Shown here: in pieces, positions 39,002-62,579 of the stretch | Numbering within the stretch: position 1 is the stretch's first letter | Layout of the letters: every line of letters begins with the position of its first letter | Program-made: the position numbers and the translations under genes | Notes under the pieces: generated by a model | Told to the model about the DNA's origin: nothing | Database searches by the model: none | What the model saw: only the letters and a program-made list of their open reading frames with translations | Assembly (NCBI GenBank): GCA_947503145.1 | Contig: CANNCP010000013.1 | Location: 1-64,000, forward strand | DNA from: an uncultured Roseovarius sp. | GTDB taxonomy: Bacteria; Pseudomonadota; Alphaproteobacteria; Rhodobacterales; Rhodobacteraceae | DNA length: 64,000 nucleotides | Reading direction: 5' to 3'

Positions 39002-39019
39002 CAGGAAGGGACAAAAGAG

Positions 39020-40400: not shown

Positions 40401-40403
40401 ACC

Positions 40404-42300: not shown

Positions 42301-44703
42301 ATGAACGTAACCAAGGGTAAATTTGGCAAGAGGACGGACGACGTGGAGAGCTTTGACACGGTTCCGGAGGGCTATTCGGGAACGGTCTACACCTGCTCAA
42401 TGCACCCCGAGGTGCGCAGCGCCGAGGAGGGAACCTGCCCGAAATGTGGTATGTTCCTGATACCGGAAGGGGAAGTTGCGGAGCACGGGCATCACGACCA
42501 TTCCGGTCACGCCGAGGCGCATGGTAGCGCAAGCGTGAGTAAAACGGAGGGCGAATACGACACCGTACCCGAGGGCTACAGCGGTACAGTCTATACCTGC
42601 CCGATGCATGCGCAGGTGCGCCATCCCGGACCGGGGTCATGTCCGATTTGCGGTATGGGGTTGGAACCGGAAACCGTAAGCCTCGAAGATGACGGCCCGA
42701 ACCCCGAACTGGTGGATTTCACCCGGCGGTTCTGGGTTGGTGCCCTGCTGACGATCCCGGTTCTGGTCCTTGCGATGGGTCCATTCGTCGGATTCACATA
42801 TTTCCAGGAACTGTGGGGGGAGCGCACTGCGCTCTGGATCGAAACGGTTCTGGCGACACCTGTGATCCTCTGGTCGGGTTGGCCGTTTTTCGTCCGCGGC
42901 TACAATTCGTTCCGCACGATGAATCTCAACATGTTCAGTCTGATCTCAATGGGCGTCGGTGCCGCTTGGATTTTCAGCGTCGTGGCCGTCATCGCACCGG
43001 GGATATTCCCCGACGGATTCCGCGACCAGAACGGCAATGTCGGCGTCTATTTTGAAGCGGGCGCCGTGATTGTGGTCCTGGTCCTGCTGGGACAGATGAT
43101 GGAGTTGCACGCCCGCGAAGGTACCGGCAAGGCGATCCGCGCGCTGCTCGATATGGCGGCCAAGACGGCGCTGGTGATCCGCCCCGACGGCACCGAAGAA
43201 GAAATCGAACTGGACCAGGTGCAGTTGGGCGATCACCTGCGAGTGCGCCCCGGCGACAAGGTACCGGTGGATGGCGTGGTTGTCGAAGGCCGCTCATCCG
43301 TCGATGAATCGATGATCTCGGGCGAACCCATGCCGGTCGAAAAGGTCGCCGGAGAGCCTGTCACGGGCGCGACGATCAACGGCACCGGCAGTCTGGTGAT
43401 CGAGGCGACAAGGATCGGCGCCGACACCATGCTGTCCCAGATCGTGCAGATGGTCGCAAATGCGCAGCGCAGCCGCGCCCCCATCCAGAAATACGCTGAC
43501 AAGGTGTCGGGGATGTTCGTGCCCGCCGTTATCGTCATCGCGATCCTGTCGTTCATTTCCTGGGCGATCTGGGGACCGGACCCCGCGATGGCCTATGGTC
43601 TCGTCTCCGCCGTGGCCGTGCTGATCATCGCCTGTCCCTGCGCACTTGGCCTCGCGACACCGATGTCGATCATGACCGCTACGGGCCGCGGTGCGCAGAT
43701 GGGCGTGCTGATCAAGAACGCCGAAGCATTGGAGCGGTTCGAGAAGATCGACACGCTCATCGTGGACAAGACCGGTACCCTGACCGAAGGCAAGCCCAAG
43801 CTGGTAGCCGTGCTGCCCGAGAAGGGGCACGACGAGGCCGAAGTGCTGCGCCTTGCTGCCTCGCTGGAGCGCGGATCGGAACACCCGCTGGCCGAGGCCA
43901 TCGTACGCGGCGCCGAGGAACGCGGCATCGAGTTTTCCAAGGCCGAGGATTTCGAGGCCGTGACCGGCAAAGGCGTCAAGGGCCGGGTGGACGGCAAGTC
44001 CGTGGCGCTTGGCAATGCGGCCCTGATCCATGATCTGGGGCTGGACAGCGGCGCACTGGTCGATACGGCCAACACGCGCCGCGACGAGGGCGAGACGGTG
44101 ATGTTCATCGTATTGGACGGCGCCATCGCCGGCCTCGTGAGCGTCGCTGACCTGGTGAAGGAAACCACCCCTGCTGCGATCGAAGCGCTGCACGAGCAGG
44201 GTTTTCGGATCATCATGGCGACGGGCGACAACGAGCGCACGGCGCAGGCAGTCGCGAGCCGGCTGGGCATCGACGAGATCCGCGCTGACGTGCTGCCCGA
44301 AGACAAGGCCCGCATCATCAAGGAGTTGCAAGCCGAGGGTAAAAAGGTCGCGATGGCAGGTGACGGTGTCAATGACGCGCCTGCCCTTGCGCAGGCCGAT
44401 GTCGGCATCGCCATGGGCACCGGGGCCGACGTGGCAATCGAGAGCGCGGGCTTCACGCTGGTCAAGGGAAACCTTGATGGCATCGTACGGGCCCGGAAAC
44501 TAAGCCACGCGACCATGCGCAACATCCGTCAAAACCTGTTCTTTGCGATGATCTACAACGCGGCGGGCGTCCCGATCGCAGCAGGTGTGCTTTACCCGTT
44601 CCTTGGCATCCTGATCAGCCCGATCTTCGCCGCTTTCGCGATGACGGCGTCATCCCTGTCGGTCGTATTGAACGCACTTCGGCTGCGACGGCTCAGATTC
44701 TGA
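42301..44703 (+). CDS. copper-type P1B ATPase with two HMBD metal domains
   Basis: An 800-residue ATPase. The N-terminus has two short heavy-metal-binding domains: [10 protein letters not shown]...CPKCGM (residues 30-52) and [10 protein letters not shown]...CPICGM (98-120), separated by a His-rich stretch ([14 protein letters not shown]). TM6 carries IIACPCALG (near 446), then DKTGT (near 488), HP locus SEHPLAEAI and GDGVND. CPC with HMBDs is typical for Cu(I)/Ag(I) pumps of the CopB/SilP type. GGAAAGGACACGAG precedes the ATG. It follows fabI by 56 bp and may belong to the same transcript. No copper-responsive regulator lies immediately beside it. Confidence 0.92.
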
Positions 44704-46262: not shown

Positions 46263-47660
46263 TCACGGCAGGACGACCCCTCCGAAAGCTTGGGCGAGGA
46301 ACGGGCCGCTCAGGAGCCCCAAACCGATCAGCGCAATGGCACAAAGCACGGCTATTGCGCCGCTGGACCGGCCCAACGTGGCGGGCCTCGCGTCCGGTCG
46401 AGCGGTGAAATACATCGGCGCGATGACCCGCGCGTAATAGAACAGCGAGACGACGGTGTTCAGCACCGCCGCGAGTGCCAGCCATGTATAGCCGCCGTCG
46501 ATGGTGACCAGGAACAACCCCAACTTGCCCACGAATCCGATCAGCGGCGGGATGCCGACCAGCGACAGGAACGCCACGATCAGCCCCGCCGCCATGTCGG
46601 GGCGCGTGCGCGCCAGCCCATTGTAATCCTCCAGCGCCGTGCGACCGCGCAGATGGGCGACGACGGCAAAGGCGGTCACGTTCGCAAGCGCATAGGCGGC
46701 CAGAAACCAGATCAGCGCGGGCAGCGCCTCCGCGCTAAGGTCCGCCACGGCCACAGCCATCAACGCATAGCCCGATTGCGACACCGAGGACCAGCCGATC
46801 AGGCGGCGCACATCGGTCTGCCAGAGTGCGGCGAGGTTGCCGAGGCTCATCGTCAGAACCGACAGCGCCGCGATCAGCGGGCGCAGCATGTCCGTCTCGG
46901 GGAACAGATGCACCAGCCGGTAAAGCGCCAGCGCCGCGCCGATCTTGGGCACCACCGTCAGGAAGGCCGCCGCGGGCACCGGCGCGCCCTCGGCCACGTC
47001 GGGCATCCAGGCGTGCCCCGGCACCGCGCCCAGCTTGAACGCCAGGCCGCAGACGATCAGCGCAAGGCCCAGAAGCGCCAGCGGGGATGAGACATCCGCG
47101 CCTTTCAGGGCGGCGAAATCGCTGGTCCCTGTCATGCCCATCAACAGGATTACGCCGATCACCAGCAGCGCATTGGCGAGCGCGCCGATCAGGAAGTATT
47201 TCATTCCCGCCTCGACCGACAGCGCCCAGTCGCGGTGCCAGACGGCCAGCACATAGCCCGTGACCGAGGACAACAGCACCGCCATGACAAGCTGCATCAG
47301 GTCCGCCGCCCCGGCCATCGCGACCGCGCCGAGCGCGGAAAACAGCGTCATCGTGTAGAACTCGCCATGGCGCCGGTCGCTGGCGAACCAGCACGGCGCC
47401 AGCGCCAGGCAAAGCGCCGTCGTCACCACGATTATCGCCCGCGCCCAAAGCGTCACGCCATCCAGCGCGAAGGTGCCCGAAAAGGTCAGCCGCGCCGCCC
47501 CCGCTTGCGCGAGCGCCCAAAGCGCCGCGACCGCGAGTGCTGTCAGCGCCGCGGCAAGGCACCAGCCCAGCCGGGGCTGCGGCAGCACCATCGCCAGCAA
47601 AAGCGCCGCGATGGCCCCCGCGATCAGCGCGATCTCGGGGCCAAGGTCCGCGACCGGCAT
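46263..47660 (-). CDS. nuoN: NuoN-like antiporter-type subunit of a complex I-related module
   Basis: A 465-residue NuoN homologue with about 14 TM segments. The antiporter core shows DRRHGEFYTMTLFSALGAVA, SVEAGMKYFLIGALANALLV (TM7-like lysine at 154) and AFKLGAVPGHAWMPDVAEGA. In the TM5 segment the canonical glutamate of [LF]GLELLSLxLY is replaced: DLMQLVMAVLLSSVTGYVL has Leu129 at that position. Other charge positions (Lys154, the HAWMPD segment) remain. It is the last gene of the A-BD-H-J-K-L-M-N order, starting 1 bp after the nuoM stop. Loss of that Glu questions standard proton pumping by this subunit. Confidence 0.85.
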   Translation of the reverse strand: MPVADLGPEIALIAGAIAALLLAMVLPQPRLGWCLAAALTALAVAALWALAQAGAARLTFSGTFALDGVTLWARAIIVVTTALCLALAPCWFASDRRHGEFYTMTLFSALGAVAMAGAADLMQLVMAVLLSSVTGYVLAVWHRDWALSVEAGMKYFLIGALANALLVIGVILLMGMTGTSDFAALKGADVSSPLALLGLALIVCGLAFKLGAVPGHAWMPDVAEGAPVPAAAFLTVVPKIGAALALYRLVHLFPETDMLRPLIAALSVLTMSLGNLAALWQTDVRRLIGWSSVSQSGYALMAVAVADLSAEALPALIWFLAAYALANVTAFAVVAHLRGRTALEDYNGLARTRPDMAAGLIVAFLSLVGIPPLIGFVGKLGLFLVTIDGGYTWLALAAVLNTVVSLFYYARVIAPMYFTARPDARPATLGRSSGAIAVLCAIALIGLGLLSGPFLAQAFGGVVLP

Positions 47661-47661
47661 C

Positions 47662-49140
47662 TCAGCCGCCCCCGGTGGCCAGCAGGGCGCCGGCGCCGAT
47701 CATCTCCAACAGCCAGGCGGGCCAGACCCCGATCAGGACCACCAGCACCAGCAGCGCGGCCATCACGCTCATCTCCACCGCCGTCAGGTCGGCGAAATCA
47801 TTCAGCGCCGGCGGCCTCTGCCCGAAGAATATCCGTTGCAGCATCCCCAGGAACAACGCCGCCGTGACGATCAGGCCCAGCAGCGCCAGCGCCGCCAGCC
47901 AGGGCCAGACGGCGAAGGCGCCGATGAAGATCTGCACCTCGGCCACGAAGCCGGCCAGCCCGGGCAGGCCCAGCGAGGCAAAGCTCGCCAGCCCCATCGC
48001 CGCCATCATGCGCGGCGCATTGCCCGCCAGCCCGCCGTAGTGGTCGAGGTCGTATTCCTGCCGGCGCGCCCAGAACGCCCCCGCGATCAGGAACAGCGCC
48101 CCGGTGATCAGCCCGTGCGCCACCATCTCGACCACGGCCCCCGTCAGCGCCAGGTCGCGCGCCGCCTCGTGCCCCGTCACGGCAGAGCCCGCAACCGCGA
48201 TGCCGAGCACCGCGTAGCCCATGTGGTTGACCGAGGTGTAGGCGATGCGCCGTTTCAGGTTCTCCTGCGCGAAAGCGACGATGCTGCCCCAGAGGATCGA
48301 GATCAGCGCCACGATGCCGATCGCCAGCGCCCAGGTGGCAAAGGTCTCGCGCATCATCTGCATCGCGATGCGCACCAGGCCATAAGTGCCCATCTTCAGC
48401 AGCACGCCGGCAAGAATGGCCGAGGCCGCGCCGGGCGCGTCCACATGCGCGGGCGGGAGCCAGGTATGCACGGGAAACAGCGGCGTCTTCACGGCAAAGC
48501 CGATGACGAAGCCCAGAAGGATCAGCCCGGCGCGCAGGTCCATCCCCGCCACCGGCTGCATCGCGATCAGCTCGCGCATGTCGAAGGTCAGCGGATCGAC
48601 CATGAGCACCAGCGCGATGATCGCCAGCAGGATCAGCAGCGAGCCGGCGAGCGTGTAGAGAAAGAACTTCAGCGCCGCGCGCTGTGCCTCGCCGTGTCCC
48701 CAGCGCCCGATCAGGAAATACATGCCGACGAGGCTGAGATCGAAGAACACGTAGAAGATCAGCAGGTCGAGCGTCAGGAACACGCCCAGCGACGCGCCTT
48801 CGAGGAACAGGAACCAGGCGTAGTACTGCCGCGCGTTCACCTCGCGCTCCATCGGCCAGGCGATGGCGGCGACGAACAGCAGCCCGCTCATCAGCGCCAG
48901 CGGCAGCGAGATGCCGTCGACACCCACCCGCCAGGCGACGCCGAGCGCGGGGATCCACGGCGCCTCCTGCACCGCCTGGAACCCTGCCGCCGGCGTGAAG
49001 CCGGCCCAGACCACGACCAGCGCCACAAGCGACAGCGCCGCCGCCGCGATGGCCAGGGAGCGCGACAGGGAGGCGGACAGCGGCGCGAAGGCCAGCAGGG
49101 CCGCGGCGGCGAGGGGCAGCAGGATGGCAAGTGTCAGCAC
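47662..49140 (-). CDS. nuoM: NuoM-like antiporter-type subunit
   Basis: A 492-residue NuoM homologue with the usual 14 TM segments. Well-conserved stretches are GVDGISLPLALMSGLLFVAA, AALKFFLYTLAGSLLILLAI (TM7 Lys) and FAVKTPLFPVHTWLPPAHVD with ASAILAGVLLKMGTYGLVRI (TM8 Lys and His). In TM5 the motif FYVFFDLSLVGMYFLIGRWG has Asp134 where family members have Glu and Gly where Pro is usual. The acidic charge is kept but shortened. Two bp separate it from the nuoL gene. It is GC-rich and has normal length. Confidence 0.88.
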   Translation of the reverse strand: MLTLAILLPLAAAALLAFAPLSASLSRSLAIAAAALSLVALVVVWAGFTPAAGFQAVQEAPWIPALGVAWRVGVDGISLPLALMSGLLFVAAIAWPMEREVNARQYYAWFLFLEGASLGVFLTLDLLIFYVFFDLSLVGMYFLIGRWGHGEAQRAALKFFLYTLAGSLLILLAIIALVLMVDPLTFDMRELIAMQPVAGMDLRAGLILLGFVIGFAVKTPLFPVHTWLPPAHVDAPGAASAILAGVLLKMGTYGLVRIAMQMMRETFATWALAIGIVALISILWGSIVAFAQENLKRRIAYTSVNHMGYAVLGIAVAGSAVTGHEAARDLALTGAVVEMVAHGLITGALFLIAGAFWARRQEYDLDHYGGLAGNAPRMMAAMGLASFASLGLPGLAGFVAEVQIFIGAFAVWPWLAALALLGLIVTAALFLGMLQRIFFGQRPPALNDFADLTAVEMSVMAALLVLVVLIGVWPAWLLEMIGAGALLATGGG

Positions 49141-49142
49141 CG

Positions 49143-51131
49143 TCAGAACCTCCGGAATATCAGGAACAGGATCGCGGCCGCCGCGCCGGTGACGAATATC
49201 GCGTAATAATGATGCGACAGCCCGGTTTGCAGCCGCCGTGCATCGGCGCCACTGTGCCCGATGATGCGTGCGGCTCCTTCGGGCAGGCCGTCGGCCAGCG
49301 TTTCGCCCGGATTATCGCTCAGACGTGCCAGTGCGCGCGTTATCGCGACCGTCCGCCAGACCGCAGCGTCGATCAGTCTGTGGTCAGCTTGCATCAATCC
49401 ACGGAAACCGCGCCGACCGTGCGGCAGCATCCGTGTCGCGCCCTCAGCCCCTTGCGGAACCGCGCCCGGTCCCGCCTTGTCGAACCAGCGCCACCCACGC
49501 GCAACCCGCTTTGCCAGTCGGGCGGCCCCGCGCGGGAGCGCATCGAGAACGGCATCGTCGATATAGGCGGCCAGACGGGCCATCTGCCCGAAGGGCAGGA
49601 CGATCCCGGCGTCGATCAGCGCAGGCAGACCCAGCCAGTCAGCGGCTTGCGGCTCCGGCGCCTTTTCCCGCCGTGCCAGCGTCAGCCCGGCCAGCAGGCC
49701 GGTGGCGACCAGCACGAGCGACACTGCGGTTTCCAGCGATACCCCCTCGGGCAGGCGCATCGGCAATGCCGCCTGCACCGGGTCGAGCCACAACAGCCCA
49801 AGACCGACGCAAGCCAGGGCCAGCGCCCCCGTCGCGGCAATCTCGGGCCAGCGCGGCCTTGCCTCCGGCGCCGTATTCCCCGGCGCATAGGCCAGCCACC
49901 AAAACCGCGCGGCATACGCGGCGGAAAGCGCGCCTGCGACCATCACAGCAAGCCCCAGCCAGAGGCTTTCGTGCATGGCGGCGGCAGCAATCCGTTCCTT
50001 GCTCCAGGCGGCGCCCATGGGCGGCACCGCTGCCAGCGCCAGAGCCGCCAGCGCGGTCAGCCCGGCTGTCCAGGGCAGCGCGTGCATATATCCCATTTCG
50101 CGCAGGCGATAGGTTCCGGCGGCCTCTCCCGCGATCCCGGCAGACAGGAACAGCGGTGCCTTGAACGCGGCATGGGTGACCAGATGCACCACCGCGACGC
50201 CCGGGTAGCCCACGCCCACGGCCACGGCCACGGCCACGAACATCAGCCCCAGTTGCGCCGAGGTCGAGGCCGCCAGCAGCTTTTTCGCGTGCCCGTGCAT
50301 CACCGCCACCGCGCCGCCCGCCAGCGCCGTGACGAGGCCAAGCGCGATGACCGCGCCGCTCCAGCCCGGCACGCCGCTTAGCCACGGATGCAGCCGCGCC
50401 AGCAGATAGGCCCCCGCCGCGACCATCGTCGCCGCGTGCAGCAGCGCCGAGACCGAGGACGGCCCGTCCATCGCGCGGAACAGCCAGACCGCGAACGGCC
50501 CTTGCCCCGCCTTGGCCCCGGCAGCGACCAGCACGCCGAAGGCGGCCAGCGCCAGCGCCGTTCCGTTCAGCCGCCCGAGCGCGGCATAATCGAGCGTGCC
50601 CGCGCCGCTCCATGTCGCCATCAGCGCGATGAACAGGCCCAGATCGCCCAGCCGGGTGGTCACGAAGGCATAGCGCCCCGAGGCCATGTTTGTGTGGTCG
50701 CGCCAATGGTGGCCGATCAGCGCCCAGGAACAGAACCCCATCACCTCCCAGCCGATCAGCAGCGACAGCAGGTCGGCGGCGGTCACGGTCAGCAGCATCG
50801 CGCCGGTGAATATCAACATCAGGCCGAGCAGCCGCGCCCGCCCGCGCCGTTCCTCATGCGCGGCGGCAAAGACCAGAACCGCCAGCGCCACCGCCGGGAC
50901 GGTGATCGCCACGGCGGCCGAAAGCGGCGTCAGCGCCAGCCGCAATTCCAGCCCCGTGCCCCAGACAAAGCTGCCCTGCCAGCCCTGCGCGGCGGCCAGC
51001 ACCGCCAGCGCCAGCGTCACAACTGCCGCGCCGCCCGTTATCAGCGCCAGGCGCAGCCGCGGCCCGTCGCCTTGCGTCCAGATCGCCAGCCCGGCCAGCG
51101 CCGGAAAGAGAGGCAGCGCGAACAGCATCAA
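49143..51131 (-). CDS. nuoL: NuoL-like antiporter-type subunit with lateral-helix region
   Basis: A 662-residue NuoL homologue. Family stretches are LLSLLIGWEVMGFCSWALIG (TM5 Glu present), GRYAFVTTRLGDLGLFIAL, GAKAGQGPFAVWLFRAMDGP and SSVSALLHAATMVAAGAYLL; canonical PLHVWLPDAMEGPTPVSAL is changed to PFAVWLFRAMDGPSSVSALL. The C-terminal part extends to 662 residues and includes a charged segment (near 560-640) before a final TM, as in NuoL proteins with the lateral helix. It overlaps nuoK by 4 bp. Start ATG 51131; the preceding gene end supports this start. Confidence 0.88.
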   Translation of the reverse strand: MMLFALPLFPALAGLAIWTQGDGPRLRLALITGGAAVVTLALAVLAAAQGWQGSFVWGTGLELRLALTPLSAAVAITVPAVALAVLVFAAAHEERRGRARLLGLMLIFTGAMLLTVTAADLLSLLIGWEVMGFCSWALIGHHWRDHTNMASGRYAFVTTRLGDLGLFIALMATWSGAGTLDYAALGRLNGTALALAAFGVLVAAGAKAGQGPFAVWLFRAMDGPSSVSALLHAATMVAAGAYLLARLHPWLSGVPGWSGAVIALGLVTALAGGAVAVMHGHAKKLLAASTSAQLGLMFVAVAVAVGVGYPGVAVVHLVTHAAFKAPLFLSAGIAGEAAGTYRLREMGYMHALPWTAGLTALAALALAAVPPMGAAWSKERIAAAAMHESLWLGLAVMVAGALSAAYAARFWWLAYAPGNTAPEARPRWPEIAATGALALACVGLGLLWLDPVQAALPMRLPEGVSLETAVSLVLVATGLLAGLTLARREKAPEPQAADWLGLPALIDAGIVLPFGQMARLAAYIDDAVLDALPRGAARLAKRVARGWRWFDKAGPGAVPQGAEGATRMLPHGRRGFRGLMQADHRLIDAAVWRTVAITRALARLSDNPGETLADGLPEGAARIIGHSGADARRLQTGLSHHYYAIFVTGAAAAILFLIFRRF

Positions 51132-51433
51132 TGCCTCATCGTCTTCAGGCTTTCGGTTATGTCCGCCTGCCGCTTGCGGTAGACCGCGACGACAAGCGCA
51201 AAGCCCACCGCCATCTCGACCGCCATCACCGCCATGACGATGATTGCCAGAAGCTGCCCCTCGGGCGCGCCACCAAGCGAGAACGCCCAGAAACCGATCA
51301 CTGCGAGGATCGCGCCGTTCAACATCAGCTCCAGCCCCATCATCAGCATGACGAAGCTCTGCTGCGACAGCGCGCCGTAAAGCCCGATGCCGATCAGCGC
51401 GGCGGCGACGATCAGGACGGAGACCAGCGTCAT
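51128..51433 (-). CDS. nuoK: NuoK-like subunit
   Basis: A 101-residue NuoK homologue with three TM segments: LVSVLIVAAALIGIGLYGAL, FVMLMMGLELMLNGAILAVI and IIVMAVMAVEMAVGFALVVA. The two conserved glutamates (in GLELMLN and AVEMAVG) are present. ATG 51433 lies 1 bp after the nuoJ stop (51435), and the end overlaps nuoL by 4 bp, so translation is coupled. Length matches NuoK (about 100 residues). Confidence 0.9.
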   Translation of the reverse strand: MTLVSVLIVAAALIGIGLYGALSQQSFVMLMMGLELMLNGAILAVIGFWAFSLGGAPEGQLLAIIVMAVMAVEMAVGFALVVAVYRKRQADITESLKTMRH

Positions 51434-51434
51434 C

Positions 51435-52034
51435 TCAATGCCCTCCGTGGTGGTGATGTCCGCCGCCATTCTCCGGCTGCCGCCCCGCGGGCGCGCCGCC
51501 GGGGGTAAGGCCGGGCGGCACAGATCCAGCGTCGGAGTCGCTATAGCGGCCCGAGCGGGCCGACAGCACCACCGCGCCGATCATCGTCGCCAAAAGCGTG
51601 ACGCCCGCTGTCTCGAAGATCAGCATCGACGGCCCGAGGAGTTCGTGGCCCAGAGCGCGCACCACGTCGGCGCCCTGTGGCACCGGGTTCGATGGCAGGT
51701 CCGACAGCAGCGCCGCCGCCGACAGCCCGGCAAAGGCGACGATCCCCGCCGCGACGGCAAAGCGGTGCTGATGCACCATTACCATCGGGTTCAGCCCGGC
51801 GGGGTTCATCATGAACATCACCATGAACAGCGCCATGACCATCATCTCGACCGCCATCATGAAGATCGTGGCGATGCCGATATAGGGCGCGGCGAGCAGC
51901 ACCGCGATCAGGCCGACGGCGATGAAAGACACCATCAGCTGAAACGAGGCGCGCACCATGGAATCGACCCGGAACACGCGCCAGCCCGACCAGATCGCCA
52001 GCGCAGAAAGGGCAAGGAAGAGCGCATCGGTCAT
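51435..52034 (-). CDS. nuoJ: NuoJ-like subunit
   Basis: A 199-residue NuoJ homologue with five TM segments (LFLALSALAIWSGWRVFRVD, MVRASFQLMVSFIAVGLIAV, GIATIFMMAVEMMVMALFMV and two more). The final 25 residues are His- and Gly-rich (ENGGGHHHHGGH), which is not seen in canonical NuoJ and could bind metal. It overlaps nuoH by 4 bp. Order and size fit the H-J-K-L-M-N membrane arm without nuoI between H and J. Confidence 0.85.
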   Translation of the reverse strand: MTDALFLALSALAIWSGWRVFRVDSMVRASFQLMVSFIAVGLIAVLLAAPYIGIATIFMMAVEMMVMALFMVMFMMNPAGLNPMVMVHQHRFAVAAGIVAFAGLSAAALLSDLPSNPVPQGADVVRALGHELLGPSMLIFETAGVTLLATMIGAVVLSARSGRYSDSDAGSVPPGLTPGGAPAGRQPENGGGHHHHGGH

Positions 52035-52901
52035 GGCAGCACCTCCACGCCCACCAGCGCCAGACTGGCGAAGGAGAGCGGCAGCAGCACCACCCAGAGC
52101 AGGGTCAGCATCCGTGCGGGTGGCATCCGCACAAAGAACCGCCCGGCAGCCACCGTTGCGGCCATCACGGCCAGCGTCTTAAGCAGCAGCCAGACCGGCC
52201 CCGGCAGCACCGGCCCCAGATGGCCGCCGAGAAAGGCTGTCGCTGCCATGGCCGAGAAAGCTACCAGCATCGCCGCCCGCGCGAATTTCCAAAGCGCCAG
52301 CGCCGGGCCGCTTTCCTCGGCGCTGGTGCCGCCCGCCAGTTCCGCGCCATCGGCATAATCGAACGGCCCGCGCAAGGTGATCGCCAGCCCCAGCGCCATG
52401 AAGAGCGGCAGGCCGAGCGGTTGGCGCACCACGTTCCACAGACCGCGCTGCGCCTCGACGACCTCCACGACCGACAGCGATTTCGCCGGCAGCGCCGCGC
52501 CAATCAGCACGAACATCGACAGCAGCATCGCCGGCAGGGCGATGGCGACATAGCGATAGGCGCCGATCAGTGGAAAGGGCGCGTTCGGCGACCAGCCATG
52601 CAGAAAGACGACCACCACCGTCAGCGCCTCGCTAGCGCCCCAAAGGACAAGGCCGGTTGACAGATCGCTGGCGACGACGTCCTCGGCCAGCGGCACCACT
52701 GACAGGCCCACCAGCGCCAGCGCCAGATACCAGCCGGTCGGGCGCCTCGGTCGGGGTGTTCGGACGCAGCAGCAGCGCCGCGCCATTGCGGATCGGCCCC
52801 ATGACAACGGCGCCGCGCCCGGTGCCGATGCGGTCGAACATCGCGGCAAACCAGACCAGCGGCGGCAGCGCCATCAGCAGGATGACGGTTGCAAGGATCA
52901 T
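52031..52901 (-). pseudogene. nuoH: NuoH-like subunit gene with a frameshift
   Basis: The N-terminal reading starts at ATG 52901 (MILATVILLMALPPLVWFAA) and proceeds to EAPDRLV, where it shifts frame near 52730-52733. The next frame continues WYLALALVGLSVVPLAEDVV to the end at 52031. One extra or two missing nucleotides at the CTGGTATCTGG stretch would explain this. Combined length is about 290 residues, with PFDYADGAELAGGTSAEESG matching the PFDLPEAE-like segment of NuoH. The start overlaps the previous gene stop by 4 bp. Since all neighbours are intact, a sequencing error or a very recent mutation is likely. If real, the module is broken. Confidence 0.82.
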
Positions 52902-53776
52902 GCGGTCTCCTTGGTCAAAAAGGCGGCGCGCAGGCGCGAGGGCGGGAAACTGGCCAGCCAGAGCACCGCCTCGGCCCATTCCAGACCCGGCAGCGCCTCG
53001 GACAAGGGGGCGGGTGTTTCGGCAACCGCCTCACCGCGTAGCCATGTCGCCAGCCGTCGCCGCATGCCCGAGCCTTTGGGCAGCGCCATGAGCGCCCCGC
53101 GCATCCGTGCAGCAACCGGCCCGATCCCCATCAGCCGCAGCATCCGCGCGGCGCAGAGGGCGGGCGCATCGCCCCGCCGCCCCTGTTCAATCGGTGGCGA
53201 GACCACGGTGGCCGATACGATCACGTCACCTTGCAACGTCATATCCAGCACAAGCCCCGGCGGCCACATCGGCAGGAACGGGCCGAACCGCGCAGTATAG
53301 GCATCCAGCGCCAGCCCGTCGCGGATGTCGTCCGCAGTCATCGCCATCGGCCGGCCATAGGGATTGCCGCCCATCATGCCGCGCCCGCCTTGCCCGTGCG
53401 GTCCCATCCCCTGCCAGGGATGCGGCGGCACGTCGGGGCGCTGGTCGGGGTCATCCGCCTCTGCCGCAGCCCGGATCGCGGGCAGGGGATCGTCGCCCGC
53501 CACGGCCTCGCCCCGCTGGAACAGCGGCGGCGCCTGCCACCAGACCGTCCCGCGCGGCGTCGGGATCTGCGCGTGAAGCCGTTCCAGTTCGGTCTTGTGC
53601 GCGCCATCCACCGCGCCCGCGACCAGCAGCACGCGGGCGTGGCGGGGGCTGTCAACCAGACGCAGGCCGGGCCGGTGCCGCAGCCCTTCGACCGGCACCA
53701 GACCCTGTGCGCCAACCACCGCAAAAACCGGGATCTCGGCGCCGCGCGCCAGGGCGGAAAGCCAGTTCATTGCCAT
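52898..53776 (-). CDS. NuoB-NuoD-like fusion lacking the iron-sulfur cysteines
   Basis: A 292-residue protein. Start ATG 53776 has AGGGGG 7 nt upstream. Residues 12-80 are NuoB-like: RLVDSPRHARVLLVAGAVDG and LERLHAQIPTPRGTVWW correspond to the NuoB ASPRQADLMIVAG ... QMPEPKWVIAMG region. The NuoB Cys motifs are missing; only one Cys (208) occurs in the whole protein. A His/Met/Gly-rich linker (116-145) follows. Residues 147-200 are NuoD-like (RDGLALDAYTARFGPFLPMW, LVLDMTLQGDVIVSATVV). It should not carry cluster N2, so it may be a structural adaptor that caps the membrane arm. Intact and in-frame with nuoA/nuoH overlaps. Confidence 0.72.
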   Translation of the reverse strand: MAMNWLSALARGAEIPVFAVVGAQGLVPVEGLRHRPGLRLVDSPRHARVLLVAGAVDGAHKTELERLHAQIPTPRGTVWWQAPPLFQRGEAVAGDDPLPAIRAAAEADDPDQRPDVPPHPWQGMGPHGQGGRGMMGGNPYGRPMAMTADDIRDGLALDAYTARFGPFLPMWPPGLVLDMTLQGDVIVSATVVSPPIEQGRRGDAPALCAARMLRLMGIGPVAARMRGALMALPKGSGMRRRLATWLRGEAVAETPAPLSEALPGLEWAEAVLWLASFPPSRLRAAFLTKETA

Positions 53777-54111
53777 CGGAACACCCCCTCGCGCCAGCCA
53801 TAGAGGATACCGACGGACAGGATGCCGAGGAACATGCCCATCTCGGCCAGCGCCACCGGCCCGGTTTCGACATAGACCACCGCCCACGGATACATGAACA
53901 TCATCTCCATCTCAAAGGCGATGAAGAGCAGCGTCATCGGGTAATAGCGCACATGAAACCGCTGCCAGGCATGGGTTTCGGGCAGCCCACCCCCGAGAAA
54001 GGGCGCGCGCTGCGGCCATGTCGCATCAGTCCGCGCGCCGATCCGCTGCATCGCGACCGCAAAGGCGATGGCAAGCAGCACAAGGATGAGGGGCATTGCG
54101 ATCCCGGTCAT
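53767..54111 (-). CDS. nuoA: NuoA-like subunit
   Basis: A 114-residue NuoA homologue. TM1 is MPLILVLLAIAFAVAMQRIG; the cytoplasmic loop holds PFLGGGLPETHAWQRFHVRY, then TM2 YPMTLLFIAFEMEMMFMYPW with the conserved acidic EMEMMFMYPWAVV motif. The canonical Cys of the loop (ECGF in NuoA) is replaced. It is the first gene of the module and overlaps the next gene by 10 bp. A promoter should lie at 54112-54234; TATGCTAT-type sequences are visible but not convincing. Confidence 0.85.
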   Translation of the reverse strand: MTGIAMPLILVLLAIAFAVAMQRIGARTDATWPQRAPFLGGGLPETHAWQRFHVRYYPMTLLFIAFEMEMMFMYPWAVVYVETGPVALAEMGMFLGILSVGILYGWREGVFRWQ

Positions 54112-54234: not shown

Positions 54235-55116
54235 TCACGGCGCACACCGGTAGAAGCCGCGGAACCCGGCGGTCAGGCCGGCATCCAGCTCAAGGGTCAG
54301 GTCGGCCTCCTGCATGGTTCCGTCCGCGTTCAGGGCACCGCCGCCCGGCGCGCTCACCTCTATGGCAAGACCGTCCGCGCGCGGCGCGGCGCCGGTCGCA
54401 ATATCGCCTTCCGGCGCAACGTCCAGCCGCACCAGATCGCCGCTGAGTTTCACAAGGCCCGCCATGTCGTCACCGACCGAACCGATTGCGAGCACCGCGG
54501 GACTGTCGGAGGTGTAGGAGAACGTGCAGGTGGGACCATCTGGGAAAAGCCGCGCGATTTCCGCGTCACTCATGAAGCCCGGATCGAGAACCGGTATATT
54601 GGCCGTGGAAAGCGCCTGGTCGAGGCTCACGATTTCGCCGACACTCGACTCTTGCGGCTCGGACATCACGCCCGATGCCTCGATCTCGTCGACAAGATAC
54701 CGCATCTGGGCAATTTCCTTGTCCTGGGCATAGATGATTTCATCGGCCAGCTTGCGCACGCGGGCATCTTCGATATTGGCCCGGCTCGACGTCATGATGG
54801 CGATGGAATGATGCGGGATCATCGCCCGCATGAAGCTGGTATCGCCGACCGTCACCTGGCTGCGCACCAGCCAGAGCGACGCTGCGAAGGCCAACGCTGC
54901 ACCCGCAAAAATCGAGGCGTTGATTGTCTTGCTGGAATACATTGACAACATGAATCCGAGCATGATGAAGGCCATTGTCGCGCCCATCAGGACCGCCATG
55001 TAGGCCCGTGTCTCCGACCAGAAGACATGCGCCCAGAGGTAGGTATTGAGATACATCAGGATGAACATCACGACCGTCGAGGTCGCGATCATTGCGGCAA
55101 ATCTCCAATATGACAT
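54235..55116 (-). CDS. DUF305-type membrane protein
   Basis: A 293-residue protein with four TM segments (residues 5-90) followed by a DUF305 region: FMRAMIPHHSIAIMTSSRAN and EDARVRKLADEIIYAQDKEI with ALLYLVDEIEASGVMSE-like RYLVDEIEASGVMSEPQ. The H-H pair after MIP is typical of DUF305. The last 130 residues form a second, less clear domain (LFPDGPTCTFSYTSDSPAVL). DUF305 proteins are frequent in copper and other metal resistance loci. Its promoter region contains two adjacent palindromes (55154-55188), one of them CueR-box-like. Function unknown; a metal-binding role is probable. Confidence 0.72.
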   Translation of the reverse strand: MSYWRFAAMIATSTVVMFILMYLNTYLWAHVFWSETRAYMAVLMGATMAFIMLGFMLSMYSSKTINASIFAGAALAFAASLWLVRSQVTVGDTSFMRAMIPHHSIAIMTSSRANIEDARVRKLADEIIYAQDKEIAQMRYLVDEIEASGVMSEPQESSVGEIVSLDQALSTANIPVLDPGFMSDAEIARLFPDGPTCTFSYTSDSPAVLAIGSVGDDMAGLVKLSGDLVRLDVAPEGDIATGAAPRADGLAIEVSAPGGGALNADGTMQEADLTLELDAGLTAGFRGFYRCAP

Positions 55117-55209: not shown

Positions 55210-55626
55210 TCAGGAATGTCGTCTGGTCGTGACCAGAAAGATGGTCGAAGCCGAACAGCTGATCAGCAAGAAACCGTTCAGCGCCTCAATCCCCGCCAGA
55301 AAGCGCAGATGACCTGTCGGATAGATGTCGCCCAGCCCAAGGGAAGAATAATTCACCACTGAGAAATAGAACACATCCATGAATGAGTTCACGTCAGCTT
55401 GCGCAAAACCGCCAATGCCCGTCGGTTCGCCGATAAAGAAGCCGACCGCGTAGAGCCCTGCCTCGGCAATATGCGCGGCCGCCAGGACGTAAAGGGCAAT
55501 CAACAGTGCACCTGTGCCGGTGATGTGCTTCCGGTCGGTAAGGTGCATGGCGAATGCCATTGCACGCGCATGCAGGCCACCGCACAATCCGAAAAGAATG
55601 ATGACCAGCCCTGCAGCCAGTGTCAT
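55210..55626 (-). CDS. small two-TM ion channel-like protein
   Basis: A 138-residue protein with several hydrophobic segments and a pore-like motif VNYSSLGLGDIYPTGHLRFL, close to the TTVGYGD type of potassium channels, followed by the inner helix AGIEALNGFLLISCSASTIF. The first part has a re-entrant hydrophobic region and HLTDRKHITGTGALLIALYV. It lies 15 bp downstream of cueR and is likely co-transcribed with copA-cueR. The ion is unknown; the filter SSLGLGD is not the strict K+ signature. Charge balance during metal efflux is a possible role (inference). Confidence 0.7.
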   Translation of the reverse strand: MTLAAGLVIILFGLCGGLHARAMAFAMHLTDRKHITGTGALLIALYVLAAAHIAEAGLYAVGFFIGEPTGIGGFAQADVNSFMDVFYFSVVNYSSLGLGDIYPTGHLRFLAGIEALNGFLLISCSASTIFLVTTRRHS

Positions 55627-55641
55627 ACGCGACTGTCCCTC

Positions 55642-56061
55642 TTAACCGGCTTCATTCAGCAGAGCGATTTCTTCCTCTTTCGCTGCAAGATCGGCCAGGA
55701 TAGGGCAGTCGGGCCGGTGGTCTCCGGCGCAGGCATCGACGAGATGCGCAAGCGTCGCGCGCATCTCCGTCAACTCCGCGATCTTCCGGTCAATCCGGTC
55801 AAGCTGCACTTCGGCGATCTGTTTGACCTCGGAGCTGGTGCGGTCGTCGTCCTCGTAGAGCTTCAGGAGATTGCGGCAATCCTCGATGCTGAAGCCGAGC
55901 GCGCGGGCGCGCCCGAGGAATGCCAGCTTGTGCACGTCGCGGTCGCGAAAGCTGCGATAGCCGTTGGCGCTGCGCAGCGGCTTGACCAGCCCGATATCCT
56001 CGTAATAGCGGATTGTCTTGGCCGGCAGGCCGGAGCGTTCCGCGACATCTCCGATGTTCAT
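55642..56061 (-). CDS. cueR: CueR-type copper-responsive MerR regulator
   Basis: A 139-residue MerR-family regulator. The start ATG 56061 has AAGGAGG upstream and gives MNIGDVAERSGLPAKTIRYY (winged HTH). The C-terminal metal-binding loop has Cys111 and Cys119 in DACAGDHRPDCPIL, matching the C-x7-C spacing of CueR/HmrR. This supports Cu(I)/Ag(I) sensing. It follows copA by 13 bp and precedes the channel gene. It should activate the copA promoter (58610-58640) and the plus-strand promoter next to it; both carry CCTTCC-type dyads and a -35 TTGACC. Confidence 0.88.
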   Translation of the reverse strand: MNIGDVAERSGLPAKTIRYYEDIGLVKPLRSANGYRSFRDRDVHKLAFLGRARALGFSIEDCRNLLKLYEDDDRTSSEVKQIAEVQLDRIDRKIAELTEMRATLAHLVDACAGDHRPDCPILADLAAKEEEIALLNEAG

Positions 56062-56074
56062 CTCAAAATCCTCC

Positions 56075-58582
<2,508 letters not shown>

Positions 58583-59720: not shown

Positions 59721-60197
59721 TCAATTTCCTTCTCTCTGGGACTCGGCGGCACTGCGTTCGGCCTGAATCTGTTGTTGCCGATCCGGCCAGGTGGATTTGA
59801 TATAGGCGAGGATGTTCCAGATCTGGTCGTCCCTCAGTTGATCGCCAAAGCCGGGCATGCCGCTTGCAAAATCAACGCCCTGTGCCGCGAGGGTCGCCTT
59901 GCCGCCGAGCCTGGTGTAGTCGAAGAGCACGCTGTCGGGATGATGCCAGGTATGGCCCGTTTCGTCATGCGGCGGCGCGGGCAGCGTGCCGTCCGGTCCA
60001 GGTGAGCGCCAGTCCGGCTGGCCCTCGAGGTTGGCGCCGTGGCAGGAGGCGCAGTAGCTCTGGTAGAGTTTCTCGCCCTGCGCCAGATCGGCGCTTTCCG
60101 GAGGAGCGCTGGTTTCGGCCCCGGCCTGCGTCATCAGCCATGCGCCCGCGGCGGCACCGGATAGAAGCACGGCGGAAAGGAGCAGGTATTTCCGCAT
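59721..60197 (-). CDS. monoheme c-type cytochrome
   Basis: A 158-residue cytochrome c with an N-terminal anchor or signal (MRKYLLLSAVLLSGAAAGAW). The heme motif is CASCH (residues 49-53), preceded by GEKLYQSY. The second ligand is probably the Met of GMPGFGDQLRDDQIWNILAY. This is a class I cytochrome of the type that accepts electrons from oxidases or dehydrogenases. Its ATG overlaps the stop of the multicopper oxidase (TGATG). It could be the electron acceptor or donor of the multicopper oxidase (inference). The C-terminus is Gln-rich (DRQQQIQAERS). Confidence 0.85.
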   Translation of the reverse strand: MRKYLLLSAVLLSGAAAGAWLMTQAGAETSAPPESADLAQGEKLYQSYCASCHGANLEGQPDWRSPGPDGTLPAPPHDETGHTWHHPDSVLFDYTRLGGKATLAAQGVDFASGMPGFGDQLRDDQIWNILAYIKSTWPDRQQQIQAERSAAESQREGN

Positions 60198-61588
60198 CAC
60201 GCCACCTCCAGCCAGGTCATCATGCCCGAGTCCGCATGGCTCAGCATGTGACAGTGAAACAGCCATTTTCCCGGATTGTCGACGACGAAAGCGATGGTCC
60301 GGGTCTCGCCGCCAAACATCAGCAGGGTGTCGCGGAAGGGGCCAAGGCCCGCGTCCCCGGTTACTTCCCGGAAATGCATCCCGTGCAGGTGCATTGCATG
60401 GGGGAAGGACGTGTCGTTGTAGATTTCCAGCTTGATCGTCTCACCCACGGGCACGCTCACGAGCGGGGTGTCGGTCATCCCGATCGTCCCGTTGAAGGAC
60501 CAGAACTGGTTTGCCTCGACCAACTGGCGAAAGCTCTTGCGTTCGCCGTCGAGGGTGGCGGCATCGAGTGTGCCCATTGCCCCGCCCTGCATATTGAGCC
60601 GCGCCGTTACCGCTTTTTCCATGCCGGATATGTCCATGCGTGGGTTCGGGGGCAGGGGATGTGGCGACCCGCGCCGCGCCGCCGCCGCGCGGCCCGATAC
60701 CGGAAACGCCACCTGTGAGACGCCCTCCTGATCCTCGACGCGCACAAGATGCGCTGTCTCGCCCGACGCCGCTGTGACGTCCACGATCAGATCGGCGCGC
60801 TGGCCCGGCCCAATGATCAGCACCTCACTTACTGGCTTGGGCTCGGACAGCGGCATGCCATCAAGGGCCACGGTCCAGCCTTCCATCCCGAAAATCGAAA
60901 GAACGAATATCCGGGCGTTGGCGGCATTGATCAGCCGCAGCCGCAGGCGTTCGTTCTGCTTCACGTCCAGCGACAGATCAAAGCGCCCGTTGGTGGCGAT
61001 GAAGTTGCCGCGCCGCCCGGCATGGCTGCGATCATGGCGTGACGTGAAGTCGGGGTCGATCTGTGCCGTTTCGGGATCGAGAAGCCAGTCGTCGAGGATC
61101 AATACCTCCTCGCGGTCGATATCCGGCGCCTCGGGCTCTTCCACGATCAGCGCACCATAGAGTCCGCGCGCGACCTGCTCGGTTGACCGGTTGTGCGCGT
61201 GATACCAGTAGGTGCCGGCGTCCGGCACCACGAAATCATAGTCGAAACCCTGTCCCGGCTCGACAGCTGGCTGCGTCAGCCCGGGAACCCCGTCCATCGC
61301 GTTGTCGATGCGGATCCCGTGCCAATGAACCGAACTTGCCTGCGGCAGTTCGTTCAGGAACGATCTCTGGATGCGGGCGCCTTGAGCCATCCGCAACTCG
61401 GGTCCCGGCATCGCGCCGTCATAGCCCCAGATTTCAGTCTTGGGATAGGTTGGGGGTGCAAGTTGGACGCGCGCGGGCCGGGCCTTGAGTTCGGTAAAGC
61501 GTGGCGTTGCAGCACGCGCCAGGGCCGGAACGGTCAGAGCCGCAATCGTCGCCGCGCCCTGCTCAAGAAATTCTCGCCGTGTCGTCAT
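60197..61588 (-). CDS. multicopper oxidase with Tat signal (CueO/PcoA-like)
   Basis: A 463-residue multicopper oxidase. The Tat signal is TTRREFLEQGAATIAALTV. Copper ligand motifs are HWHG (88-91), YHAHNRST (YWYHAH, 129-132), HAMHLHGMHF and the C-terminal HCHMLSHADSGMMTW. This gives the full T1, T2 and T3 sets (T1 with Met). Enzymes of this group oxidise Cu(I) or other metals and organic substrates. Start ATG 61588, 49 bp after the diheme cytochrome gene. The extra Met-rich segment typical of E. coli CueO is not visible. Metal substrate is unproven. Confidence 0.9.
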   Translation of the reverse strand: MTTRREFLEQGAATIAALTVPALARAATPRFTELKARPARVQLAPPTYPKTEIWGYDGAMPGPELRMAQGARIQRSFLNELPQASSVHWHGIRIDNAMDGVPGLTQPAVEPGQGFDYDFVVPDAGTYWYHAHNRSTEQVARGLYGALIVEEPEAPDIDREEVLILDDWLLDPETAQIDPDFTSRHDRSHAGRRGNFIATNGRFDLSLDVKQNERLRLRLINAANARIFVLSIFGMEGWTVALDGMPLSEPKPVSEVLIIGPGQRADLIVDVTAASGETAHLVRVEDQEGVSQVAFPVSGRAAAARRGSPHPLPPNPRMDISGMEKAVTARLNMQGGAMGTLDAATLDGERKSFRQLVEANQFWSFNGTIGMTDTPLVSVPVGETIKLEIYNDTSFPHAMHLHGMHFREVTGDAGLGPFRDTLLMFGGETRTIAFVVDNPGKWLFHCHMLSHADSGMMTWLEVA

Positions 61589-61637
61589 CTTTTCCGTGTC
61601 CTTGAAATGTGCGGGGCGATACGCCGCCCCGCCCGTG

Positions 61638-62579
61638 TCAATCGATGGTTTTGCCGATACTCGGCGTCCCCGCCAAAGCCCTGCGTTCCGGTACATCGCT
61701 GTCGAGAAGATAGATCGCCATCGCTTTCGAATCGGACTTTGAGAGGAACCGCGTTCCGTTCTGGACAACCTCACCCATGCTGCCGCCGAACACGTCTCCT
61801 GACGGGGTAACACCACTTTGCAGAGCATATGACAGATTGGCGACGGTCCATCCGCGATCTGCCAGATCGTCGGACAGGATTGATGGTGCCTTGTTTCCAC
61901 CGGGCAGGTCGTCGTTGCCGGCAAAAACGGCATCTGGCATCCGGCCGCCCGCGAGGTTCCGACCGGTGTGACAGGCCCCGCAATGGGCGGCGCCGCGCAC
62001 GAGTTGCCGGCCGCGGTTCCAGTCGACGCTCTTTCCTTCCACCGGTTCGGTCTGCGGATCATGCATGAAAAGCGCACGCCATAGTTTCAGGCCCCAGCGT
62101 TGGTTGAACGGGAAACCGACATCGTGCGGTGGTGCGGGGTTGGTTACCGGTGCGACGGTCTGGAATGCTGCCCACATATCGGCGACGTCCTGATCGGAAA
62201 AATCCGCATAGAACGGATAGGTGAATGCCGGAAAGAAGGGCTCGCCATCGGGCGAAACGCCCTGCCTGACAGTCATCGCGAAGTCAGACAGGCTCCAGTC
62301 TCCGATGCCGTGCTCGGGATCGGTGGTTATGTTCGGCGGGTAGAAGACGCCAAACGGGGTTTCGAGCGGGGCACCGCCCGCCAGCGGAGCGCCGCCATCC
62401 TCGAAATTCGTGTGACAGGCGATGCAACCGCTCGCGCGCGCCAGATAGGCACCGCGCTGGACATCGCCGGTCAACTCGATCTCGGCGGGCGGTCGGCCAA
62501 TGGGCCAAACCACCAACGCCGCGATTGCCGCCGTGCCGGAAAGGGCAAGGACGGCAACACCTGCAAGAACCCGCCTCAT
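61638..62579 (-). CDS. diheme c-type cytochrome
   Basis: A 313-residue protein with an N-terminal TM/signal (VLAGVAVLALSGTAAIAALV) and two heme motifs, CIACH (52-56) and CGACH (200-204). Each cytochrome domain has later Met-containing segments as ligands. The layout matches the cytochrome subunits of membrane dehydrogenases (alcohol/gluconate dehydrogenase type) but no flavoprotein or PQQ partner is nearby. It sits in the minus-strand operon, 1 bp after the cytochrome c' gene. A role in passing electrons between the quinone pool, oxidase and copper oxidase is possible. Confidence 0.85.
   Translation of the reverse strand: MRRVLAGVAVLALSGTAAIAALVVWPIGRPPAEIELTGDVQRGAYLARASGCIACHTNFEDGGAPLAGGAPLETPFGVFYPPNITTDPEHGIGDWSLSDFAMTVRQGVSPDGEPFFPAFTYPFYADFSDQDVADMWAAFQTVAPVTNPAPPHDVGFPFNQRWGLKLWRALFMHDPQTEPVEGKSVDWNRGRQLVRGAAHCGACHTGRNLAGGRMPDAVFAGNDDLPGGNKAPSILSDDLADRGWTVANLSYALQSGVTPSGDVFGGSMGEVVQNGTRFLSKSDSKAMAIYLLDSDVPERRALAGTPSIGKTID

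Follow-up and report, generated by a model that had tools for sequence, protein, structure and literature searches.

A TM5 glutamate column altered across an orphan family of complex I membrane-arm clusters, and a possible link to metal resistance

The orphan nuo cluster

The DNA analysed here, referred to as the window, is a stretch of 64,000 nucleotides (positions 1 to 64,000, forward strand) of contig CANNCP010000013.1 in assembly GCA_947503145.1, from an uncultured Roseovarius sp. It contains eight consecutive minus-strand genes, nuoA, a nuoB/nuoD-like (B/D-like) gene, and nuoH, J, K, L, M, and N, the products of which are related to subunits of respiratory complex I. An earlier note had proposed that the glutamate conserved in transmembrane helix 5 (TM5) of the antiporter-like subunits is changed in both NuoM and NuoN of this cluster, while being kept in NuoL, and that a graded loss of charge fits specialisation. 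The genes are as follows:

46263..47660, minus strand: nuoN homologue, 465 amino acids (TIGR01770 exactly at its cut-off, PF00361)
47662..49140, minus strand: nuoM homologue, 492 amino acids (TIGR01972 above cut-off)
49143..51131, minus strand: nuoL homologue, TM5 Glu kept (Pfam match, structure-chain alignment)
51128..51469, minus strand: nuoK homologue, Glu36 and Glu72 kept, true start maybe further in (PF00420; NF004320 over cut-off)
51435..52034, minus strand: nuoJ homologue with a C-terminal GGGHHHHGGH tail (PF00499)
52031..52901, minus strand: nuoH homologue with a frameshift between about 52630 and 52850 (PF00146)
52898..53776, minus strand: B/D-like subunit, 292 amino acids (NuoB-like N-terminal domain, Gly/Met-rich linker, shortened NuoD-like part)
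53767..54111, minus strand: nuoA homologue (PF00507)

All seven membrane subunits (A, H, J, K, L, M, N) give Pfam matches over cut-off; of the NCBIfam models, TIGR01972 and NF004320 are over cut-off and TIGR01770 is at it, the other cut-offs not being reached. The host carries a separate canonical nuo locus, in which lies the single PF01058 (NuoB) match in the host, none being found in the orphan cluster, and an antiporter-type pair, read as Mrp, is located on contig C4, apart from the cluster. A full second complex I in the window was considered and rejected, there being no NADH module or NuoI at the cluster. A scan for promoters and terminators gave nothing above chance.

The TM5 glutamate column

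Alignment by phmmer with Protein Data Bank chains, together with MAFFT columns, bears out the proposed assignments, i.e. Asp134 in NuoM, Leu129 in NuoN, and a retained glutamate in NuoL. NuoM Asp134 falls on the TM5 Glu of cyanobacterial NdhD (6hum_D), of 8qby_M, and of plant ND4 (7aqq_M), and NuoN Leu129 occupies the column of the TM5 Glu in 8qby_N, NdhB (6hum_B), and plant ND2 (7ar7_N), the helix being gap-free in both cases; T. thermophilus chains (4he8) are also among the structure-chain matches. The same columns emerge from a MAFFT L-INS-i alignment with NuoL/M/N of E. coli K-12 and of the host's own canonical locus, the E. coli equivalents being NuoL E144, NuoM E144, and NuoN E133. The places of the two codons, computed from the starts of the open reading frames (ORFs), are:

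47274..47276, minus strand: NuoN Leu129 codon, TM5 Glu column (E. coli E133)
48739..48741, minus strand: NuoM Asp134 codon, TM5 Glu column (E. coli E144)

A glutamate displaced within the same helix, the outcome that the earlier note had named as contrary to its proposal, was rejected: from −8 to +10 of the column the window proteins have no other acidic residue. The same interval is free of acids in 46/47 orphan NuoN rows, the sole row with an acidic residue near the column being that of Halomonas (Glu at −6), and holds only the column's own Asp or Glu in 47/47 orphan NuoM rows. The model of the window NuoN superposes on known NuoN chains (Z about 29–31) and contains residue 129 in a helix spanning residues 121–141, a block with a mean predicted local distance difference test score (pLDDT) of 72, against 61 for the whole model (moderate confidence).

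Conservation across the orphan family

The TM5 glutamate of NuoN is absent from 47/47 rows representing orphan clusters, compared with 0/10 canonical rows; its place (E133 column) is taken by Leu in 25, Val in 19, and Gln in 3. At the NuoM E144 column, Asp (23) and Glu (24) divide the 47 orphan rows almost equally and all 10 canonical rows have Glu. NuoL retains Glu throughout (46/46 orphan and 9/9 canonical rows). The counts leave out one frameshifted record (L043) and, for NuoL, a locus that ends before nuoL (L090). The three Gln residues at NuoN position 133 belong to a Rhodopseudomonas/Methylobacterium subclade without a B/D gene (L048, L049, L082).

In quick maximum likelihood trees, from which the scored column was removed beforehand, the orphan rows lie on one side of a branch, with Shimodaira–Hasegawa-like approximate likelihood ratio test (SH-aLRT) values of 100 for NuoM and 97 for NuoN. 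The NuoM state (Asp or Glu) is explained by one change on the tree and the NuoN states need three, the minimum for four states; the root of the orphan clade is unsure, because long branches join near its base. The expected conservation within the clade thus holds, in that NuoN position 133 is never acidic in orphan rows and these fall on one side of a branch in both trees, and the claim of specialisation is supported. Judged by the alignments, both TM5 changes are traits of the family, which derives from the membrane arm of complex I and is non-redox. The description of the changes as a graded loss applies to only part of the family, since NuoM Glu is kept in 24/47 rows. Specialisation shows more clearly outside nuoM and nuoN: the redox arm is missing, NuoB/NuoD is degenerate, the quinone side is dismantled in part, and metal-binding tracts have been added.

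The orphan set comprises 48 loci, among which several are near relatives of one another or truncated at contig ends. A search with the B/D protein found loci in 8/196 genomes of the order, and one with NuoM (E ≤ 1e-95) gave 20/394 genomes of the family, the window's own being included in both. Seven named loci are in genome contigs, from Pelagivirga, Sedimentitalea, Roseovarius spongiae (twice), an uncultured Rhodobacteraceae bacterium, Palleronia, and an Allopusillimonas record. Among plasmids, a NuoN search gave 373 records with any match, in which rows H10–H44 (down to 38% identity) are of orphan type as far as fetched; 21 of these 35 rows were examined. The plasmid loci are from Roseivivax, Acuticoccus, Halomonas, Sulfitobacter, Roseovarius indicus, Arthrobacter sp. 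FB24, Pseudarthrobacter, Pseudonocardia, Ornithinimicrobium, Gordonia, Rhodococcus, Rubrobacter (two), Curtobacterium, Nitratireductor, Rhodopseudomonas, Methylobacterium (two), Paracoccus, Mycobacterium avium, and M. paragordonae. Orphan clusters occur both on plasmids and in islands; many of the sampled records are marine, and others are from soil, sputum, and weathered concrete. A class-level search (E ≤ 1e-90) gave six further genomes at 39–42% identity, all taken as canonical rows; redox genes are present at five of the six loci (L100, L102–L105), the sixth (L101) being short and grouping with L104 in the NuoM tree.

Two side observations concern the sample. Roseovarius spongiae HN-E21 has two divergent copies of the cluster (L020, L024), and the record titled Allopusillimonas ginsengisoli (L022) encodes a B/D protein that is 76% identical, by horizontal transfer or contamination.

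Other residues of the membrane arm

Retention of the TM7 lysine in all three antiporter-like subunits, as the earlier note had it, is true for the window; family-wide, NuoN K217 is Glu in 5/47 rows. Otherwise the TM7, TM8, and TM12 lysines (Glu in the case of NuoM TM12) are kept, except for NuoL K399E in 3/46 rows. Invariant in all orphan rows are NuoL K229, H254, K305, and K342, NuoM K234, K265, and E407, and NuoN K158, K247, and K395. NuoK E36 is present in 45/45 orphan rows and E72 is Glu in 44/45 and Asp in 1/45. As far as these residues indicate, the antiporter core is intact in the orphan family. The charge reversal at NuoN K217 occurs in L037, L048, L049, L052, and L082, and L048 and L049 also have Glu at NuoL K399.

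Elsewhere substitutions are frequent. NuoN H305 is Gln in 47/47 orphan rows (His in 7 and Asn in 3 canonical rows), NuoJ Y59 is Met in 42/45, and NuoA D79 is Glu in 13/41. In NuoH, E241 is Arg in 42/45 orphan rows, E157 is Glu in just 8/45, and E218 is acidic in 0/45, with a gap in 25.

The missing redox arm and the B/D-like subunit

No NuoE, F, G, or I was found by blastp with the E. coli proteins in the stretches fetched at the 48 orphan loci, several of which are cut by contig ends; the same probes do find these genes in canonical loci. A weak NuoG match near the Halomonas cluster (21%) fits a neighbouring annotated formate dehydrogenase.

In one subclade the B/D subunit is a long fusion of a NuoB-like domain and a NuoD-like domain, together with 1–5 heavy-metal-binding (HMBD) stretches that have His-rich linkers (Pfam E as low as 1e-72 for HMBD). 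This HMBD-type protein matches NuoD by hhalign with 98.6% probability (E 6e-16), and Complex1_49kDa of Pfam scores 40–58 bits in the three such proteins tested (cut-off 24); the match with NuoB is weaker (93%, E 3e-7), the Pfam NuoB model staying below its cut-off. The HMBD-type profile and the window subunit both have other residues in place of the GPxHPxxHG histidines of the NuoD quinone site, and in the HMBD-type hhalign match the GSCA cysteine of NuoB (cluster N2) is likewise replaced. The window subunit has a single Cys in 292 residues, its NuoB-like domain being without iron–sulphur (Fe-S) cysteines, and the NuoD-like parts that were counted have 0–5 cysteines, as compared with the metal-binding cysteines of the large subunit in NiFe-hydrogenase-type complexes.

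The model of the window B/D subunit is reliable for approximately residues 13–106 (pLDDT about 70–83), most of the rest being below 50 and not interpreted; the confident part is predicted to fold like NuoB. Foldseek gave 40 matches at E ≤ 1e-3, all to complex I/NDH-1 (or supercomplexes) or formate hydrogenlyase (FHL). FHL and membrane-bound hydrogenase (MBH) chains appear beside NuoB, and from their letters and lengths we take the matched chains to be NuoB-type subunits.

The middle tract of the B/D subunit is His-rich in several Actinomycetota (M. avium, M. paragordonae, Gordonia, Rhodococcus, and Pseudonocardia), and not in Arthrobacter and Curtobacterium; the subclade of the window has a short B/D subunit and, in most members, a NuoJ His tail. 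A metal-binding tract, for which the B/D subunit or the NuoJ tail had to carry an HMBD motif or 6 or more His within 30 residues, was found by script at 31/43 complete loci, or 38/43 if weak NuoJ tails (4–5 His) are counted. With a longer His-rich ORF at L042 these become 32/43 and 39/43; L091 was scored on its NuoJ tail alone (its 'B/D' overlaps the nuoH ORF) and the L080 B/D gene is represented by a fragment. Among canonical loci, the NuoJ tail reaches 4 His in 0/9, and 6 His in 30 occur in 0/13 B/CD ORFs (4–5 in 3/13). The annotated NuoJ is longer in L048 and L082.

Metal-resistance neighbourhood

Upstream of the window cluster, and on its strand, are genes for a multicopper oxidase, a heavy-metal P-type ATPase, a CueR-like regulator, and a DUF305 protein. 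The neighbouring features are:

54235..55116, minus strand: DUF305/CopM-like protein (PF03713 over cut-off; CopM model below its cut-off)
55210..55626, minus strand: ion-channel-type protein (PF07885)
55642..56148, minus strand: MerR-family regulator, CueR-like, start probably further in (PF13411, PF09278; the name CueR comes from annotated relatives alone)
56075..58582, minus strand: heavy-metal P-type ATPase, two N-terminal metal-binding motifs by reading
60197..62077, minus strand: multicopper oxidase ORF, start uncertain (tblastn with the Roseivivax and Arthrobacter multicopper oxidases)
42301..44703, plus strand: second heavy-metal P-type ATPase, two HMBD stretches (PF00122, PF19335)

A similar set of metal genes adjoins the Roseivivax cluster, on the opposite strand, and relatives of the P-type ATPase are upstream of nuoA in L019–L021 and L023. 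Copper-type tblastn probes matched in the flanks of 31/48 loci before corrections. Once the loci that were probe sources had been removed (the window, L036, L038, L039, L042, and L050) and L087, L095, and L098 counted as negative, the HMBD match there being probably to an unmasked B/D gene, copper or heavy-metal genes flank 22/42 loci, or 20/42 without L026 and L048, where the marker is DUF305 only. A marker, a MerR-type gene, is present in 1/20 random 20-kb control windows (Fisher p 0.0002 for 22/42 against 1/20), the controls being from 12 of the same genomes, all of the window's family, and the loci from several phyla; the p value overstates the case for copper, because the loci are interrelated and the P-type ATPase probe is not copper-specific. 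Canonical loci have a marker in 0/9, with flanks that are mostly short (0.4–7.6 kb), and in a small control for a plasmid effect two canonical plasmid nuo loci (Tsukamurella and Sphingomonas) have none in a flank of about 10 kb each.

Some annotated genes were missed by the probes, i.e. CusA (L040), a plastocyanin/azurin-family protein (L047), and DUF305 (L082). Copper is named in several annotations (CueR or CsoR, multicopper/copper oxidases, CopB, copper-translocating ATPases).

Beside the metal-resistance genes of the window, genes for DUF3141, acetate kinase, phosphate acetyltransferase, and an enoyl-ACP-reductase-like protein stand in a row at 37052–42244 (names by reading except DUF3141), and a short transposase-like ORF (IS3 type, by reading) is at 35904–36197, near the island edge.

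Selection and gene integrity

Comparison of the window with two or three relatives gives ratios of nonsynonymous to synonymous substitution (dN/dS) of 0.15–0.29 for nuoL, M, N, and the B/D gene, indicating purifying selection; for nuoN the values are 0.18–0.29 (against L020, L021, and L023). NuoH is open (at least 290 residues) in 44/46 orphan loci with a nuoH. The window frameshift has two possible sources, a mistake in the assembly or a recent lesion, and the Ornithinimicrobium record is also broken. An IS3 transposase is annotated within the B/D region of the Pseudarthrobacter plasmid cluster (L080, 3027–5482).

Possible function

In a wave model of coupling, the NuoN K217–E133 pair shifts after protonation of NuoK E36/E72 and passes charge on (PMC13324432). 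In E. coli, however, NuoN E133A has approximately wild-type NADH oxidase and proton pumping activities, which has been explained by NuoK Glu72 (PMC13073174); an older NuoN result is cited in PMC3046159, according to which E144 changes in NuoL and NuoM did matter and a few metazoan ND2 proteins lack the TM5 Glu. The proposal in the earlier note that pumping would be altered or abolished is therefore not supported, Asp in NuoM keeping the charge, and a TM5 change alone is no proof of lost pumping, because E133A is near wild type and NuoK E72 is a proposed stand-in. From its residues, the orphan family fits the stand-in idea, NuoK E72 being kept and NuoN Glu dispensable. Since the quinone end is remodelled and the redox arm gone, we read the TM5 change as a relaxation or re-wiring of the hand-over point.

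The function that we would put first, tentatively, is that of a non-redox, metal-coupled proton machine. A more specific version, which we hold with more doubt, is that metal binding has replaced electron transfer, the NuoB–NuoD quinone module now being a copper-binding cap and the arm using the proton-motive force to expel or sense copper; on this view the universal loss of the NuoN TM5 Glu would mark an antiporter chain uncoupled from the E-channel. We infer both the movement of a metal and its identity as copper. In the broader reading, the B/D subunit would still cap NuoA/H, and protons passing through NuoL/M/N would power the transport or detection of a cation. This cation would most likely be Cu(I) or some other soft metal, which the metal-binding cap presents. 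The cation route would be the remodelled NuoH/A/J/K end, and the quinone/E-channel end is a plausible cation site because the cation exit path of Mrp coincides with the E-channel (PMC7419157). Loss of the NuoN Glu would remove the first Lys–Glu ion pair beside NuoK. In place of the redox-gated hand-over, NuoK Glu72 would then contact NuoN directly, and the pairs further along, with Asp or Glu in NuoM and Glu in NuoL, would still work.

Several observations weigh against a metal-coupled machine. The NuoN change may be neutral drift after loss of redox coupling, because E133A is almost without effect in E. coli, and no biochemistry was found for any member of the family. Acids remain in NuoH, with E228 being Glu and E220 Asp/Glu each in 42/45 rows, and E216 acidic in 16/45 (Asp 15, Glu 1; non-acidic in 29/45), in a loop (E216–E220) where the alignment is gapped; because of these acids, the quinone-side end of the E-channel is better described as remodelled than as emptied. 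The window nuoH is frameshifted, the B/D gene is absent at L048, L049, and L082 (Rhodopseudomonas and Methylobacterium), and no metal-binding tract, even by the weaker NuoJ count, was found at L024, L043 (a broken record), L046, and L048. As to the neighbourhood, the P-type ATPase probe cannot separate copper from zinc, cadmium, or lead, and two of the 22 marker loci depend on DUF305 alone. At 20/42 loci, some on short contigs, there is no probe marker, and none was found in flanks of 14–15 kb on the Gordonia, Rhodococcus, and M. fujisawaense plasmids; the M. fujisawaense plasmid does have an annotated DUF305 gene at a distance of 5 kb.

A different cation is conceivable, though rather unlikely, i.e. 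that the cluster encodes a Na+ (or K+)/H+ machine that works like Mrp and serves adaptation to ionic or marine conditions, the metal genes being plasmid companions and the tracts serving only to regulate or buffer. A sodium role is suggested by the many marine records, which likewise counts against a metal-coupled function, and by the intact antiporter lysines; the Salinispora 'partial 2' genes, moreover, are thought to pump sodium ions or protons (PMC3314556), and Kocuria flava has the same gene list (PMC6002675). However, members are also from soil, sputum, and weathered concrete, the metal-binding domains are inside the complex's own subunits, metal markers are enriched in the flanks, and NuoK has Glu36/Glu72 where MrpC has histidines (PMC7419157).

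Less probable again is a copper-insensitive proton conductor, in which, once a metal has damaged normal complex I, an Fe-S-free arm eases or balances the proton-motive force or the pH of the cytoplasm. The lack of Fe-S ligands, the metal-resistance neighbourhood, and the conserved half-channels are in line with this, but a plain leak needs neither 7–8 conserved subunits nor a NuoD-sized cap with repeated HMBD. The setting implied by the earlier note, a spare arm that borrows the host's canonical NADH/quinone arm with an altered pumping stoichiometry, has little probability: the host does have a canonical nuo locus and some NuoH acids (E220, E228) are kept, yet the cluster brings its own degenerate NuoB/NuoD and several quinone-side NuoH and NuoJ residues are changed. 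Decaying, functionless genes, to which the frameshifted window nuoH, the broken Ornithinimicrobium record, and the IS3 transposase in the Pseudarthrobacter B/D region might point, are the least credible explanation, and one already disfavoured for the family as a whole, given the low dN/dS of nuoL, M, N, and the B/D gene, a nuoH that is open in nearly all loci, and key lysines that are invariant in 47 rows.

Comparison with known systems

Partial seven-gene nuo operons are already known. Penn and Jensen (2012) described in Salinispora, as 'partial 2', seven nuo genes for the membranous part, and called them a marine adaptation (PMC3314556); Kocuria flava S43 has nuoA, H, J, K, L, M, and N, in an organisation said to match that of Salinispora arenicola, with copD among its adaptation genes (PMC6002675). 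These operons resemble the orphan clusters in their gene list, a seven-gene set without a redox module, and also in an inferred horizontal acquisition and in having relatives in Proteobacteria. Unlike our description, the available parts of both accounts do not go into TM5 or the loss of the quinone site, nor do they mention metal-binding domains or an eighth gene of B/D-like type. The word copper is absent from the 2012 Salinispora text, and copD is not tied to nuo in the available parts of the Kocuria account. The string nuoAHJKLMN also occurs in PMC8795404, and a survey by hidden Markov models found Nuo subunits, mostly in partial sets, on plasmids of 57 species (PMC12361115, 2025); what was available of that survey offers, by contrast, no functional reading of the partial sets, and copper is absent from its text. 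The main text of a Sulfitobacter plasmid paper (PMC13386836) is without the terms nadh, nuo, copper, and complex i. No paper with the string E144D for NuoM was found, and the literature listings, in which subscription papers and bioRxiv are outside the scope, gave no account of a metal-binding B/D subunit, a metal-resistance neighbourhood, or TM5 loss.

The DAB2 vectorial CO2 hydration complex is, like the orphan complex as we read it, non-redox and has an antiporter-like subunit (PMC13144422). A DabB2 chain is among the structure-chain matches of the window NuoL. DAB2 differs in its partner protein, the carbonic-anhydrase-like DabA, and is not known to have a NuoH/A/J/K set. Mrp exemplifies a non-redox use of the same antiporter folds, as would be expected here from the retained lysines. 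By contrast with Mrp, however, the orphan cluster encodes three antiporter subunits as well as NuoH, NuoA, and a NuoK that carries Glu36/Glu72, in most cases with a NuoB/D cap, and it does not have the MrpA–G subunit set.

A further comparison is with respiratory complex I (NDH-1) itself, with which the family shares homologous A, H, J, K, L, M, and N subunits and a subunit derived from NuoB/NuoD, while being without the NADH module, Fe-S ligands, quinone histidines, part of the NuoH acids, and NuoN TM5 Glu. Orphan nuo genes do not show the presence of a second NADH dehydrogenase. Should the complex move copper or another metal, plasmids of marine, soil, and clinical bacteria would carry a new kind of metal-resistance machine under the annotation 'NADH-quinone oxidoreductase'. 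There is no agreement yet on how complex I passes energy from its quinone site to the three antiporter subunits far from it. The orphan family, in which the antiporter chain persists but the redox arm, the first Lys–Glu pair, and the quinone histidines are gone, offers a separation of these parts that point mutants do not give; if the reading with a copper-binding cap is true, the loss of the NuoN TM5 Glu would be a natural test of complex I coupling.

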